A stretch of DNA of 37,939 nt from IMG/VR virus record IMGVR_UViG_3300027852_000101, positions 1 through 37,939 of that record, one strand, 5' to 3'. The notes below the pieces were generated by a model, which saw nothing but the letters and a program-made list of their open reading frames with translations, did not search any database and was not told the origin of the DNA. Shown here one piece after another: positions 15,597 to 24,798 of the stretch; position 1 is the first letter of the stretch, and each line of letters starts with the position of its first letter. The DNA is from a virus. The translations under genes were made by a program, and so were the position numbers.

Positions 15597-16832
15597 TCAT
15601 GGTTTCGGGTTTGTCAAATGTTCGGCTTTCCCGTTTCTCTTAAATGTTTTGTTCCCAGAGTAATCAACGTACCTTTGAATAATGACATCGGCATAATGCG
15701 GATCTATTTCCATCATGAAACATTTGCGCTTTGTCTTCTCGCAGGCGATTAGGGTTGAGCCTGAGCCGCCGAAAGTGTCTAGAACGGTTTTGTCTGAATA
15801 AAGACTAGTAAACTTTTCACATAGTTCTACTGGTTTGCTATAAGAGAGGTTGTTTTTCGGATCCTTGTTTCCAGAATACAGCTTTGAATATAGATTTTTA
15901 TCATACCCTTTACGCGGATCCAACTTTCCAATGATGGCTATATATTCAATATCTGTCATTAAGTGCCCAGAATAATTCGGAGCAGTATTGGTTTTATGGT
16001 AAATTGCAAGATCATAAGATTTATTGTTTCGTTTTGCCAACTCTATATAATCCCCTATTAAACTTTTATTGTGAAAGAAAATATTAACTCCAGCATGTAA
16101 ACGCAAGCTTTCTGGATTAAAATCATGAACTTTATTTTTTATTACCTGCTTCATTGATGCGGAGTCTTTCAAGACTCCGCCGCCTTTTGGTTCAAATTTA
16201 TACGGCGGATCAGTAAAAACCATATCAGCCTTCTCCCCACCCATCAACTTATCAACATTCTCCTTAATGGTAGAATCGCCACATAACAATCGGTGATTCC
16301 CAAGCTCTATTAAATCCCCAAGCTTAGTTCTAGGCGTCTTAGGTACGGATGGTACTTCGTCTTCTTTGTTATTATCTGGAACAACATCTTTGAAATAACT
16401 AGCCTCGAAATGGTCTATATCAATTTCTGGAAAAGAGAATGAATCCGCAACATCGACAAAATCAAGCTCTGCCTCTGCCATATACTCGTAAAGCCCTTGC
16501 TCGGTTATATTGCCATACTGAGATGTAAGAGCCAGAACTATCTCCTTCGCCTCTTTTTTATTCTTAGCGTTAATTATGTTAACTGGGATTTTAGGAATAA
16601 CAAACCCCTCTGTTTGCATCTGCTGGAGAGTTCTTAATCTCTGATGCCCATTGAGTATATTGTTTTCCCATATAGAAATCGGCTCACAAAAACCGAGTTT
16701 AAGAATCTCACCACGCAATTTTTTATAATTTATTTTTGAAAGGTCTTTAAGATTTCCCTGGAATGGTATCAACTCAGAAATTTCTAATTGCTTTTCACCC
16801 TTGCACTTTATTTCGATAACACGTGGTTCCAT
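15597..16832 (-). CDS. ParB-domain DNA methyltransferase (N4/N6 type)
   Basis: 411 residues. Residues about 15-110 form a ParB/Srx-like domain (ISELIPFQGN ... GFCEPISIWENNILNGHQRLRTL). From about 170 an N6-adenine/N4-cytosine methyltransferase follows, with catalytic TDPPY (207-211) preceding the SAM site DTFGGSGST (352-360), the beta-class order. It should methylate phage or host DNA; no partner restriction enzyme is present, so protection from host restriction or regulation is likely. Its start overlaps the HNH gene by 25 nt. Confidence 0.85.
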   Translation of the reverse strand: MEPRVIEIKCKGEKQLEISELIPFQGNLKDLSKINYKKLRGEILKLGFCEPISIWENNILNGHQRLRTLQQMQTEGFVIPKIPVNIINAKNKKEAKEIVLALTSQYGNITEQGLYEYMAEAELDFVDVADSFSFPEIDIDHFEASYFKDVVPDNNKEDEVPSVPKTPRTKLGDLIELGNHRLLCGDSTIKENVDKLMGGEKADMVFTDPPYKFEPKGGGVLKDSASMKQVIKNKVHDFNPESLRLHAGVNIFFHNKSLIGDYIELAKRNNKSYDLAIYHKTNTAPNYSGHLMTDIEYIAIIGKLDPRKGYDKNLYSKLYSGNKDPKNNLSYSKPVELCEKFTSLYSDKTVLDTFGGSGSTLIACEKTKRKCFMMEIDPHYADVIIQRYVDYSGNKTFKRNGKAEHLTNPKP

Positions 16833-17466: not shown

Positions 17467-18714
17467 TTAACCCTTAATCACAGCTAATGGTTTTAGCTCA
17501 ACAACAATATCTATTAAATCTTTTTGCTCATTCATAACGATATTAATATCTTTGTATGCACCGCTTGCCTCATCCAGATTACTACTACCTCTAACAGAGT
17601 GAATAATCCCTCTTAACTTTTCTTGTTCTTTTTTAAGATCTAATTCTTTTATCGCTTTTGTTCGGCTCATTTTTCTTCCAGCTCCATGTGAACAAGACAT
17701 GAATGATTTTTCATTTCCTTTGCCACTTACAATATAGCTGCAGGTTCCTTGTGATCCAGGAACAATACCAAATTGCCCTTCTCGTGCTGATGTTGCACCC
17801 TTACGATGTACCCATAAATTTTGGCCGAAATGATTTTCTATTGCAGCATAATTATGATGTATATTAATAGCATTCTCAAACTTAACTTTCTTCTCTGTTT
17901 TGAAATATCCATAGCCACCACAATGTGCGCATTTTTTGCCTTTAAAGCCACCATCCCCTTTACATGTGACGCATGGATCTTGTATGAAAGCTTCCTTGAT
18001 TCTTTCAGCCATTAATTCCCTATTGGCTTGAGCATACTCTAAACAAAATTGCATTTCCCTTATGTACTTTCTTCCATCGTCAGAATCTATCGGGAGAAAA
18101 GCTAAGCCGTCCTCGCCCTTAAAAGGCGGTATATTGGAATGCCATTTTTTACACATTGATTGTGCTAAATTATTATAGTTCTTTGCAACCGTGTAGCCTA
18201 GGTGTCTGCTGCCTGAGTGGACCATAAACCAGATACAACCATCAGAACCTTTTTGTATTTCTATAAAGTGATTACCACCGCCTAAAGTACCCAATTGTCT
18301 CAATGCTTTATTATATTCTTGTTGACAAATTAGCATGCCAAACTCACCTACTGGCATTAACTCTAGCTCCTGCGCCTTACTGTGTGAATTGAATCCTACA
18401 GGGATCTTCTTTCTAATTAATGTCAGTATGTCTTTGAGCCTCTCGGTACTAATTTCTGTTAAATCTGTTTTGATAGCCAACATACCACATCCAATGTCTA
18501 CACCAACAGCATTAGGGATTACAACACCTTTGCAAGCGATAACCCCACCTATTGGCATCCCATAACCTTGATGTGTATCTGGCATTAATGCAACATGTTT
18601 AAAAACAAATGGCAATTTAGCTAAGTTTTCAGCCTGTGCTATCGCTCCATCCTCTGGATTCTCACACCAGCTAAAAACCGGGATTCTCATATTGGCAGTT
18701 TTAATTACCCTCAT
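17467..18714 (-). CDS. rtcB: RtcB RNA-splicing ligase with inserted zinc finger
   Basis: 415 residues from the ATG at 18714 (GAGGGG upstream; a TTG codon precedes). RtcB joins RNA 2',3'-cyclic-phosphate or 3'-phosphate ends to 5'-OH ends using GTP and Mn. Expected residues are present: Cys76 in VDIGCGM, His149 in GGGNHF, His166/His171 in HSGSRHLG, His303 in WVHRKGAT and the guanylylated His343 in CSHGAGR. Residues 248-270 carry an extra C-x2-C-x10-C-x2-C finger with Gly spacing like a DnaJ half-finger. Phage RtcB probably repairs tRNA cut by host anticodon nucleases. Confidence 0.93.
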   Translation of the reverse strand: MRVIKTANMRIPVFSWCENPEDGAIAQAENLAKLPFVFKHVALMPDTHQGYGMPIGGVIACKGVVIPNAVGVDIGCGMLAIKTDLTEISTERLKDILTLIRKKIPVGFNSHSKAQELELMPVGEFGMLICQQEYNKALRQLGTLGGGNHFIEIQKGSDGCIWFMVHSGSRHLGYTVAKNYNNLAQSMCKKWHSNIPPFKGEDGLAFLPIDSDDGRKYIREMQFCLEYAQANRELMAERIKEAFIQDPCVTCKGDGGFKGKKCAHCGGYGYFKTEKKVKFENAINIHHNYAAIENHFGQNLWVHRKGATSAREGQFGIVPGSQGTCSYIVSGKGNEKSFMSCSHGAGRKMSRTKAIKELDLKKEQEKLRGIIHSVRGSSNLDEASGAYKDINIVMNEQKDLIDIVVELKPLAVIKG

Positions 18715-18796
18715 CAAAACCCCTCACACACTCAAACCAAACTAAAAACGCGAAAGACAGCGCCATAAAAACCAAAGTGACATTTGCATTACTCAT
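18701..18796 (-). CDS. Predicted 31-residue membrane peptide
   Basis: Short frame starting MSNANVTLVFMALSFAFLVW, one hydrophobic segment flanked by polar ends. AAGGTGA lies about 6 nt before the ATG. The start overlaps the stop region of the 99-residue gene and the end overlaps the RtcB start by 14 nt, filling the gap between those genes exactly. Tight nesting and a good ribosome site favour a real gene, but its size leaves doubt. Confidence 0.4.
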   Translation of the reverse strand: MSNANVTLVFMALSFAFLVWFECVRGFDEGN

Positions 18797-19773: not shown

Positions 19774-20015
19774 TCCCTTGCGCTCCCTATCTTACTGCGT
19801 TGCTTTATCCCCAGGGCATTTGTAAATTCTAACTCCGACCACTTTATTAAACCGGGAGCATGGCCTATATGGCAATTCAAGCAACACTTTTGAATATTCC
19901 TTGGATCATCCATGAGCTTGCCATATAGCTGCCTGTTCCTCTTGGTGTTGGGAAACTGATGGTGAGAGGTTAGGCAGTCGTACTGTCCGCAAATTGTGCA
20001 TTTACCGTAGTCCAT
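19767..20015 (-). CDS. Small HNH-like zinc-binding protein
   Basis: 82 residues. CTICGQYDCLTSHHQFP (6-22), DPRNIQKCCLNCHIGHAPG (37-55) and WSELEF follow the order C-x2-C ... HH ... N ... C-x2-CH of a zinc-stabilised HNH nuclease core. Unlike the two homing endonucleases here it has no additional DNA-binding module, so it may be a minimal nickase-like protein or a degenerate non-catalytic finger. It overlaps the repeat-rich gene by 14 nt. Confidence 0.5.
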   Translation of the reverse strand: MDYGKCTICGQYDCLTSHHQFPNTKRNRQLYGKLMDDPRNIQKCCLNCHIGHAPGLIKWSELEFTNALGIKQRSKIGSAREW

Positions 20016-20544
20016 TATTCTTCAACACATATTTAATAATATCAATCTGAGTTTTTCTCTCTGCGGCCCAGTCTGCGGCCCAGTCTGCGGCCCTGTCTGC
20101 GGCCCAGTCTGCGGCACTGTATGCGGCCCAGTATGCGGCCCTGTCTGCGGCACTGTATGCGGCCCAGTATGCGGCCCTGTCTGCGGCACTGTCTGCGGCC
20201 CAGTCTGCGGCCCAGTCTGCGGCCCAGTCTGCGGCCCAGTCTGCGGCACTATCAAAATTCGGATCGTCTTCAAACAAGAACAAGATTAGCATAAATAAGT
20301 CTTTTACTTCTTGGCAGTCACAACTAGTCACAGCCCTGTCAGCACACTCAAAAGCAAAAGCTCTTTTAACTTTATCCTCAAACGGAAGCATCTTGAAAAC
20401 CCACACTTTGTCTTCATCTAATACTTTTTCTAAATCAAGAAACTCAAGAAAAGTGCCTTCCCAATCGTTATAATGCTCAAGATAGTTTTTCCAGCTACCA
20501 CTACACGGGTTTAAATCTTTTAAAATTTGTTTAGTTATTTTCAT
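20002..20544 (-). CDS. Tetrapeptide-repeat protein (AA[DYE][WSR] repeats)
   Basis: 180 residues. About 90 N-terminal residues are non-repetitive (FLEFLDLEKVLDEDKVWVF ... VKDLFMLILFLFEDD). Sixteen tandem four-residue units AADW/AADS/AADR/AAYW/AAYS follow, then a short charged tail (KTQIDIIKYVLKNNGLR). The regular Ala pairs with large residues between them suggest a helical or solenoid scaffold. It overlaps the next gene upstream by 4 nt. Not assigned to a characterised family; see the DNA repeat at 20060-20251. Confidence 0.7.
   Translation of the reverse strand: MKITKQILKDLNPCSGSWKNYLEHYNDWEGTFLEFLDLEKVLDEDKVWVFKMLPFEDKVKRAFAFECADRAVTSCDCQEVKDLFMLILFLFEDDPNFDSAADWAADWAADWAADWAADSAADRAAYWAAYSAADRAAYWAAYSAADWAADRAADWAADWAAERKTQIDIIKYVLKNNGLR
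20060..20251. repeat. 16 x 12-bp tandem repeat inside coding sequence
   Basis: Sixteen contiguous 12-bp units of the form t[c/a]tgcggc[cca/cct/act]g on the plus strand. In coding sense the Ala-Ala codons are always GCC GCA. Variation is confined to GAC/TAC at the third position and TGG/AGG/AGT at the fourth; only the last unit departs. Units 5-10 form a 36-bp higher-order unit repeated twice, with its first 12-mer repeated as unit 11. This indicates recent expansion by slippage or unequal recombination. Confidence 0.9.
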
Positions 20545-20827: not shown

Positions 20828-21550
20828 CTACCTCAATGAATCAAAGTTAAAATTAATTATAGTTGATGTTTGCTTTAGTCTGTCAATAATCCTTTCAGCA
20901 TAAGTTTTTTTGAGCTGATCAGATGTTAAATTGGTTGTTATTATTGTCGGTAATTGCCTATTATATCGCTCGCTTATTATTGAATCAACTTTTGTTAACA
21001 CCCACCCTTCTGTATGTTCGGCCCCCATATCGTCTATCACTAAAAGCGTTGACTTCTTTATCTTATTTTCAAAGTCTACCCATTGATTTGAACTGACGGC
21101 TTTATAAGTAAATATGTCATCTAACAGGCTCGGCATGGACACAAAGAAACCATTATTCTCTCGTAGCCATTCAACAAGTAAAGCAATTGCAAAGGTTGTT
21201 TTCATGGTTCCAACACTGCCCTTTAAAATTAAACCCTCACCTTTTTTAACATGAGCGTTAAGGTTGTTTTTATATTCCATCACCTCATCATACTGTTTTG
21301 ATATTTTGTTAGGGATACCGTCCCGCTTTATTTTGTCGAATGTAATATTTTCATACCTCTTCAATATTCCTGCTTTTTTTATCTTTTCTTTCATCATGTC
21401 TATAAATTTAACACATGAATAATATTTATCTTGATTATAGCAATCTTCATAAGCCACGACTGGCTTCAAGCAAGCATCACAAGGTATCTGGTTCGCTGTC
21501 CCAGTCTTGTTTGGAAGGAAATCTCCCAGGTTTTTCTCTAGTTTTTCCAT
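20828..21550 (-). CDS. DnaC-like helicase loader ATPase
   Basis: 240 residues. An N-terminal Cys set (C24, C27, C37, C46) probably binds zinc. The AAA+ core has Walker A GSVGTMKT (111-118), where Met replaces the usual Gly before Lys, Walker B LLVIDDMGAE (169-178), sensor TIITTNL and an Arg-finger-like ERIIDRL. Such proteins load the host replicative helicase on the phage origin. An AGGAG site precedes the start, which lies inside the 3' end of the initiator gene (74-nt overlap). Confidence 0.85.
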   Translation of the reverse strand: MEKLEKNLGDFLPNKTGTANQIPCDACLKPVVAYEDCYNQDKYYSCVKFIDMMKEKIKKAGILKRYENITFDKIKRDGIPNKISKQYDEVMEYKNNLNAHVKKGEGLILKGSVGTMKTTFAIALLVEWLRENNGFFVSMPSLLDDIFTYKAVSSNQWVDFENKIKKSTLLVIDDMGAEHTEGWVLTKVDSIISERYNRQLPTIITTNLTSDQLKKTYAERIIDRLKQTSTIINFNFDSLR

Positions 21551-22289
21551 TATTTACTCCTTTTTTTCTATAAGGGCTTCTCAACCAATTACTAAAAGCA
21601 GCACTATAATTTTTATACTTCTTCCCATTTGCTTCTATCCAATTTTTAAAATTATCAAGCTCCTCAACCAGATCCTCCGGGGAGTTTTTATCTAACCACT
21701 TCTTTTGTGTGGGTTCTGGAGTTTTCATTTTTTCTAAAAAGAAAGCAAGCAATTCTTCCTCTCTTTCTAACACTATGCGTATAGGCTCAGAAATATTATA
21801 TATGAAATATTTCTCGACGTCCTTACTCTTACTCTTAACCTTAGTCTTAGTCTTATCCTTAGCCTTAATAGTTACCGAACTATTAGCTATGGGTTTACTA
21901 ACCCTATAAGATCCTAATAATTCTAAACAGTTACTAATGTTTTCATTTTGTGAGTATTCTGCACTAACTAACTCTTTTTCTAATAAAGAGCGTACACTAG
22001 CACAAACTTTTCTTTCAGAAGTTATATCACCATATTGAAACAATACAAATTTTGGTATGAATATCTTTTCTTCAGACACTTGATAAACTCTTGACCCGAG
22101 GTGTCTAAATATTTCTTCTAATGTTGTTTTATCACCTATATGAAAAATCATAGCATCAATGTCAATTTTATAAATTCCCGCATGATCACATTTAGAGATT
22201 AGAAATTCCCAGACAACTTTCATTTTAACCGGAAGACCCCTATACCAAGGATCATCAAATTTTCTTGAATCGAAAAACCTCTTCGCCAC
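21477..22289 (-). CDS. Replication initiator-like protein
   Basis: 270 residues from the GTG at 22287-22289 (VAKRFFDSRKFDDPWYRGLPVKMKVVWEFLISKCDHAGIYKID in two parts). This start is a common winged-helix N-terminus of phage replication proteins encoded next to DnaC-like loaders. A low-complexity Lys/Thr/Ser linker (KAKDKTKTKVKSKSKD) is followed by a C-terminal helical domain (WLRSPYRKKGV). GGGGGA lies upstream. An ATG at 22349 was not used because the frame would run through a terminator hairpin. It probably binds the origin and recruits the loader. Confidence 0.7.
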   Translation of the reverse strand: MAKRFFDSRKFDDPWYRGLPVKMKVVWEFLISKCDHAGIYKIDIDAMIFHIGDKTTLEEIFRHLGSRVYQVSEEKIFIPKFVLFQYGDITSERKVCASVRSLLEKELVSAEYSQNENISNCLELLGSYRVSKPIANSSVTIKAKDKTKTKVKSKSKDVEKYFIYNISEPIRIVLEREEELLAFFLEKMKTPEPTQKKWLDKNSPEDLVEELDNFKNWIEANGKKYKNYSAAFSNWLRSPYRKKGVNNGKTREKPGRFPSKQDWDSEPDTL

Positions 22290-22303: not shown

Positions 22304-22338
22304 AAAAAACCCCCCAGTATGTCACAGAAACTGAGGGG
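22304..22338 (-). terminator. Leader terminator / attenuator before the replication genes
   Basis: On the minus strand a 9-bp stem (CCCCTCAGT / ACTGGGGGG, one G.U pair, 11-nt loop) is followed by TTTTTT. It lies between the promoter near 22.44 kb and the initiator GTG at 22289. Every replication and late transcript from that promoter must pass it, so it is a candidate attenuator or antitermination target. Confidence 0.7.
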
Positions 22339-22415
22339 CAATATTGCATAGCCGTTATGGCTGTTGCATTCGGTAACTGACTTAGCTTTGTGATTGTTTA
22401 TGTGACATGAAAAGC

Positions 22416-22455
22416 ATCTTACTTATAAATTTTGGAAAGTAAAGTAAAAAATGAA
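22416..22455 (-). promoter_or_regulatory. Leftward promoter of the replication/late unit
   Basis: Minus strand: -35 TTTACT (22438-22443), 16-bp spacer, weak -10 TAAGAT (22416-22421). A TATAAG at 22422-22427 is an alternative -10. The -35 lies within TTCATTTTTTACTTTACTTT (22436-22455), present identically and in the same relative orientation at the rightward promoter. The 9-mer agccgttat occurs on both sides, at 22350-22358 and 22467-22475. The element is clear; the exact -10 is uncertain. Confidence 0.5.
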
Positions 22456-23831: not shown

Positions 23832-23876
23832 CATTAAATGCATGTAATTACAGGGGAATAAAACTTCATTTTTTAC

Positions 23877-23905
23877 TTTACTTTTGATTTTTGGGGTAGT
23901 ATAAC
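23877..23905 (+). promoter_or_regulatory. Rightward promoter of the recombination operon
   Basis: -35 TTTACT (23877-23882), 17-bp spacer, -10 TATAAC (23900-23905). The -35 is the end of TTCATTTTTTACTTTACTTT (23865-23884), identical to the element at the replication promoter. Transcription should start near 23912, producing a leader of about 95 nt before recT. Confidence 0.75.
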
Positions 23906-23916
23906 CGGATAATCGT

Positions 23917-23985
23917 ATGCGGGAATTTTTAAACGACTTATATATAATTTTGAGGCTTGCTAGATCCCGCATTCTGGTGAGCCTC
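23917..23985 (+). promoter_or_regulatory. Predicted RNA pseudoknot in the recT leader
   Basis: GAGGCTTGCTAG (23952-23963) pairs with CTGGTGAGCCTC (23974-23985) to give a 12-bp stem with three G.U pairs and a 10-nt loop. Eight of those loop bases, TCCCGCAT (23965-23972), are perfectly complementary to ATGCGGGA at 23917-23924, only about 5 nt from the predicted transcript start. Together they form an H-type pseudoknot ending 8 nt before the AAGGAG ribosome site (23994-23999). There is no T-tract, so it is not a terminator; translational control, RNA end protection or ligand sensing are possible. Confidence 0.55.
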
Positions 23986-24006
23986 CCCAGGGTAAGGAGT
24001 AATTAA

Positions 24007-24798
24007 ATGGATATATTAGAGATAAAAAAGTTACTTTCTAAGTATGAAGAAAACGAAGTTAGAAAATACATCGAATACGTACTAAAACTTTCAACTGAAA
24101 AAAAGAAAAATAGCACACAACCGAAAAATTATTGGATAACGAAAAAAACAGCCAAGGCTATAGCTTGGTATTTCGAGCAAGTTAAGATTGATGGCATGGT
24201 GATTGATGGTGTGAATATAACATTACAATCAACAGGTATTAGCTACAATTATGTGGCCTATAAAAATAAAATGCTCATGGTCTACCCGGAGAGTTTAATT
24301 GATATAGATGTTGTTTGCAAAACCGATGAATTTACAGACGTTAAAAAAGAAAGCGGAAAAGTTTATTACACCCATACGATTGTAAACCCATTTGAAAGGG
24401 GTGAAATAATCGGCGCATATTGTGTTATAAAAAATAAAAGAGGCGAGTTCTTAATACTATTAGATAGGAGTGAAATTGATAAGCATAGGAGAGTTGCTAA
24501 AACTGATTTCATTTGGAAGCAATGGTTTAAAGAAATGACTCTGAAAACCGTTATAAAGAAAGGATGTAAGCAGCACTTCTCAGACATCTATGAAAAAATA
24601 GAAGCAATTGACAATGAAAATTACAACCTGGATAACCCTCTTGATTTAGATATTAAGCTCAAACAAGAGATAGATGCCTGCACTAATATGGAAGGAGTTA
24701 AAAAGGTTTATGATAAATACAAAGACTCTACTGACAATAAAGCAGCTTTCAATAAATATATCAGCATGAAGAAAGAGAGTTTAAATGATAATTCATGA
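24007..24798 (+). CDS. recT: RecT-family single-strand annealing protein
   Basis: 263 residues. The region 'GAYCVIKNKRGEFLILLDRS' (136-155) followed by 'FIWKQWFKEMTLKTVIKKGCKQ' (in parts, 168-189) is the diagnostic core of the RecT family (GAya.i...g....e.ms..ei, then W..f..EM..KTvirr..k). RecT anneals single strands made by a partner exonuclease, encoded immediately downstream with a 14-nt overlap. It is the first gene behind the rightward promoter and the predicted leader pseudoknot; AAGGAG lies 7 nt before ATG. Confidence 0.88.
   Translation: MDILEIKKLLSKYEENEVRKYIEYVLKLSTEKKKNSTQPKNYWITKKTAKAIAWYFEQVKIDGMVIDGVNITLQSTGISYNYVAYKNKMLMVYPESLIDIDVVCKTDEFTDVKKESGKVYYTHTIVNPFERGEIIGAYCVIKNKRGEFLILLDRSEIDKHRRVAKTDFIWKQWFKEMTLKTVIKKGCKQHFSDIYEKIEAIDNENYNLDNPLDLDIKLKQEIDACTNMEGVKKVYDKYKDSTDNKAAFNKYISMKKESLNDNS

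Follow-up and report, generated by a model that had tools for sequence, protein, structure and literature searches.

Predicted pairing of the transcript 5' end with a hairpin loop in the leaders of both main operons of a phage

The recT operon of this phage and its other main operon, the minus-strand rep-dnaC operon, carry leaders that, read from their sequence, share one layout in different letters. In each, an 8-mer at or near the predicted transcript start (arm A) is complementary to bases in the loop of a downstream hairpin (arm A'). Comparison of the leaders supports this pairing of 5' end and loop well. The reading we prefer, with a probability of about 0.4, is that the pairing would capture the 5' end of the mRNA, with protection as the role common to both operons and attenuation added at rep; we infer the transcript starts, the fold in the cell and its effects. 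The coordinates of the features are collected in Table 1, numbered within the window, by which we mean the whole stretch of 37,939 nt analysed here.

Table 1. Features of the recT and rep leaders in the window.
Feature	Position	Strand	Remarks
20-nt promoter-region element TTCATTTTTTACTTTACTTT, recT operon	23865-23884	+	
Probable -35 TTTACT, recT operon	23877-23882	+	Consensus reading; within 20-nt element
Probable -10 TATAAC, recT operon	23900-23905	+	Consensus reading
recT arm A ATGCGGGA	23917-23924	+	Watson-Crick partner of the whole hairpin loop
recT-leader hairpin	23952-23985	+	13 bp, 8-nt loop; read directly and folded
recT hairpin 5' arm GAGGCTTGCTAGA	23952-23964	+	
recT hairpin loop = arm A' TCCCGCAT	23965-23972	+	
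recT hairpin 3' arm TCTGGTGAGCCTC	23973-23985	+	
recT Shine-Dalgarno AAGGAG	23994-23999	+	
recT	24007-24798	+	PF03837, E 2e-13; phrog_148
20-nt promoter-region element TTCATTTTTTACTTTACTTT, second copy, before rep leader	22436-22455	-	
Probable -10 TAAGAT, rep operon	22416-22421	-	16 nt after TTTACT; consensus reading
rep-leader arm A ATGTCACA	22401-22408	-	At predicted first base
rep-leader hairpin	22309-22339	-	10 bp, loop TTCTGTGACAT, then T run; terminator-like
rep-like gene	21477-22289	-	Start taken as GTG 22289 (inferred)
dnaC	21550-20828	-	phrog_50; next after rep-like gene

The recT gene, which is followed by a YqaJ-type exonuclease gene, is preceded by a hairpin that the initial annotation had given as 12 bp with a 10-nt loop. 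The hairpin is present, but one A-U pair had been left out of its stem. Direct reading bore out the other structural points of that annotation: all eight loop bases of TCCCGCAT are Watson-Crick complementary to ATGCGGGA upstream; the arms follow one another as A, B, A', B', the order of an H-type pseudoknot at the sequence level, here as in the rep leader; and the hairpin ends 8 nt before the Shine-Dalgarno sequence, with no T-tract after it. Nested folding of the recT leader alone is modestly above chance (z -2.07). Arm A also lies, as had been claimed, close to the predicted transcript start, which a consensus reading of TTTACT-17-TATAAC places at about 23911-23912, so that 5 nt may protrude before arm A. 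An automatic promoter scan pointed to a different pair, TTGATT-18-GATAAT (23884-23913), which would place the start within arm A.

In the rep leader, the transcript is predicted by consensus reading to start at A22408. From that base onwards ATGTCACA (22408-22401) is complementary to the 8-mer TGTGACAT in the loop of the rep hairpin (arm A', 22326-22319). AGGGGG precedes GTG 22289, a codon lying past the hairpin, and the rep start is best put there; starting at ATG 22349, as in the listed rep ORF, the frame would read across the hairpin. Profile searches with the rep-like protein returned no family match, and a partial relative adjoins dnaC in a related phage, L010. Read by eye, the rep and L010 leader hairpins have the look of intrinsic terminators, G+C-rich and followed by a T-run, whereas the recT hairpin lacks the T-run; 22309-22339 lay outside the consensus scan. 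The small early operon upstream of rep appears, also by eye, to have a separate terminator of its own (22509-22487), and the second terminator (22339-22309) therefore belongs to the rep leader.

The two leaders are linked by the 20-nt element TTCATTTTTTACTTTACTTT, which occurs exactly twice in the window, where 0.04 occurrences would be expected at up to three mismatches, and which stands 32 nt (recT) and 27 nt (rep) upstream of arm A. Between recT and rep, both partners differ in four of the eight A/A' pairs and pairing is preserved, and the spacing between the arms is 40 nt in the one and 74 nt in the other. If both leaders share descent, these double changes amount to covariation; the identical promoter element suggests such descent, without proving it.

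A third, weaker case comes from L010, which of the phages with a comparable rep-dnaC pair is the nearest (DnaC 55-58% identical, rep partial). Its rep leader begins with GATGGGTT, 8 nt after a consensus promoter (TTGACA-16-TATAAT), and this 8-mer can form seven Watson-Crick pairs and one G-U pair with GACCCATC, which lies in a long terminator-like hairpin as part of its loop; no other match of at least 7 occurs in the 32.7-kb record of L010. We count it as supportive only, because the L010 loop is able to form a small inner hairpin that competes with the arm pairing. At L024 4759-4959 of the same phage (G001 24759-24959, minus strand) there is also an intergenic array of short GGTCTT/GGTCTG-type repeats.

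Among the other relatives compared, no close homologue with the same leader was found; some of them do not contain the region. An exact search of viral contigs for the recT hairpin gave no match, and the four stretches in which a search of viral contigs found the promoter element showed no similar leader. In the relatives L003-L005 the DNA ahead of recT, where the initial annotation had advised looking for compensatory changes, shows no similar leader. Records of terL relatives held no recT or dnaC match, and the intergenic stretches read in them no comparable leader; the short loci scanned from L034-class prophages with related DnaC contained no equivalent one. For named phages that carry a related rep, dnaC or recT, the gene tables show these genes within operons. 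Two candidates were rejected. In L033 a hairpin lies ahead of rep, but its partner site is inside an upstream ORF, with no promoter. The match in L038 is a long perfect hairpin in which an inner repeat imitates the motif; this hairpin (388-448, ~28 bp) is located upstream of a set of prophage-like genes and is itself immediately preceded by a partial repeat.

The best duplex of upstream sequence with the loop region is the 5'-proximal one in all three leaders, with arm A starting at predicted transcript position 1 in rep and L010 and at 6-7 in recT. Pairing minus opening costs comes to -11.4 (recT), -8.7 (rep) and -7.8 kcal/mol (L010); these energies include no pseudoknot loop penalty and are therefore upper limits of stability. 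The distance from A' to the 3' edge of the loop is 0 nt at recT and rep and 2 nt at L010, so a classical coaxial H-type geometry would be strained in the first two. By this reasoning a kissing of 5' tail and loop is a plausible better fit than the classical form, perhaps with 6-7 pairs, an estimate drawn by analogy from known kissing loops.

We propose that in mRNAs from the two main promoters the first nucleotides, arm A, would pair with A' in the loop of a strong hairpin that immediately precedes the first gene's ribosome site, and that the result would be an intramolecular kissing pseudoknot of 5' tail and loop. The 5' end would thereby be buried near or at the point where two stacked helices join, and the transcript would, as its most likely role, be shielded from 5'-end-dependent decay. 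At rep, pairing of the arms could also alter folding of the terminator and so act as an attenuator for rep-dnaC and later genes. We favour protection as the common role because it fits recT, rep and L010 alike, while control of termination fits only rep and L010. Among three roles suggested by the initial annotation, 5'-end protection thus fits all the cases best, with attenuation at rep as our addition; nothing points to a ligand, which was also suggested there, and autoregulation by RecT is taken up below.

Protection alone does not account for the placement of a terminator before rep, and the strongest competing explanation, which we regard as improbable though well worth weighing, is an attenuation switch throughout. 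The nascent 5' end would capture the loop strand before the hairpin closes, lowering (or, by stacking, raising) termination before rep, and the recT copy would have lost its T-run or would act on translation. The terminator-like hairpins of rep and L010, each between promoter and gene, speak for such a switch, as does the separate terminator of the early operon upstream. The recT hairpin, with no T-run, speaks against it, and pairing of arm A can coexist with the stem, leaving the direction of the effect ambiguous.

That the complementarity arose by chance is unlikely. On both strands of the window we searched for hairpin loops containing an 8-mer whose complement lies no more than 80 nt upstream; the recT and rep leaders were the only two places of this kind. 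In a strict form of the motif (stem of 9 bp or more, five or more of them G-C pairs; 200 shuffles of the window), 0.015 matches were expected per shuffled window against the two found, both of which lie behind the shared promoter element. Since the cut-offs were set after both cases had been seen, the value of 0.015 is somewhat optimistic; the shared element does not depend on their choice. The loose motif is common: with 6-bp stems about one match is expected per shuffled window, so loose matches mean little, and ~410 kb of other DNA gave seven matches at slightly looser settings, several of them in local repeats. The third case, in the corresponding leader of a relative, also argues against coincidence.

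About equally unlikely is translational autoregulation, in which RecT or another phage protein would bind the pseudoknot and block the ribosome site, like gp32 on T4 gene 32 mRNA. The pseudoknot order of the arms 8 nt before the Shine-Dalgarno sequence of a gene for a single-strand annealing protein fits this idea, and T4 and RB69 offer the precedent (PMC535899). Against it, and against the RecT autoregulation suggested earlier, stands the same device, in different letters, before the rep-dnaC operon.

Slightly less probable still is a leader peptide. An AUG inside arm A of all three leaders starts a short ORF, which has 29 codons and stops immediately ahead of the ATG in recT, has 40 and stops within the hairpin in L010, and has 8 in rep; its translation would disrupt the pairing and tune the downstream structure. 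No Shine-Dalgarno sequence precedes these AUGs, however, their frames differ widely in length, and open frames of this size are common. We give least credence to an operator acting as DNA, with the arms as half-sites of an inverted repeat bound by a regulator: the arms are close to the promoters and share ATGnnnnA/TnnnnCAT, but half of their positions, and the spacing between them, differ from one site to the other with complementarity retained.

Pseudoknot leaders and attenuators as such are already known. In T4 and RB69, gene 32 mRNA carries a 5' pseudoknot (~28 nt in T4) through which the gene's own product exerts autoregulation (PMC535899). The leaders described here are similar in placing a putative pseudoknot 5' of the ribosome site of a phage DNA-recombination or replication gene. 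They differ from the T4 one in that the arms span about 70-90 nt, with arm A at the predicted transcript start, and in that the device stands before two unrelated genes, once with a terminator-like hairpin. They also recall the 5' roadblocks that stabilise mRNAs in Bacilli (PMC3997798), which may not be the host's group, in that a structure, predicted in the present case, lies at the 5' end or close to it and immediately precedes a strong ribosome site. The Bacillus stabilisers are ribosome-stall sites, ribosome-binding sites or plain 5' hairpins, while here the 5' end would pair with a distant loop and would be protected by that pairing. As in intrinsic attenuators of 5' leaders, a terminator-like hairpin separates the promoter from the first gene in rep and L010, though not in recT; unlike in those attenuators, we recognised neither a competing antiterminator stem nor a ligand site, and the partner of the hairpin loop is the transcript's own 5' end. 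In HK022, too, two main operons each begin with a structured RNA, the put antiterminator. The put sites resemble each other in sequence, in contrast to the two hairpins of the window.

Rfam covariance models gave no match at gathering score in the window and only chance-level matches in the recT leader, and a limited literature search returned no description of a phage leader of this layout. The claim of a new phage regulatory RNA survives in part: a pseudoknot-type 5' leader outside the Rfam families is supported by the second leader with its compensating letters, and autoregulation specific to RecT is unlikely.

Several further observations concern the same genome. A third exact copy of ATGCGGGA (22183-22176, minus strand) lies within the rep coding sequence and was set aside, being at chance level for an 8-mer. 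It forms part of a recurrence in which 17 nt of the recT leader start (23917-23933, plus strand) return with one mismatch in rep coding sequence (22167-22183, minus strand); this is probably chance, though the rep mRNA would thereby be complementary to the recT hairpin loop. A minus-strand ORF (20002-20544) contains, at 20057-20284 and inside its coding frame, ~15 tandem copies of a 12-bp unit of the TCTGCGGCCCAG type, encoding an AADWAADW/AAYWAAD repeat stretch. An RtcB-type RNA ligase gene (17467-18717, minus strand; phrog_1075, E 1.5e-120) adjoins the gene for a ParB-like/DNA methyltransferase protein (15597-16832). The low end of the window (position 1) interrupts the late genes of the minus strand, and tail genes of that strand pick up again at the high end (37939), an arrangement suggestive of a circularly permuted genome that was cut within a single operon.

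These leaders may, tentatively, belong to a novel kind of phage leader RNA: the 5'-terminal nucleotides of the message would capture a loop, that of a hairpin or attenuator lying just before the first gene. One phage would use this at both of its main operons to coordinate the survival of its mRNAs or their read-through, and the letters that pair could vary from promoter to promoter. Should the fold form, two phage operons would have their 5' ends hidden in a knot that involves the hairpin preceding the first gene, a sequence-independent way of protecting an mRNA or tuning an attenuator. Because complementarity is kept and sequence is not, homology-based RNA searches would tend to miss such leaders, which could be searched for as a pattern near promoters.
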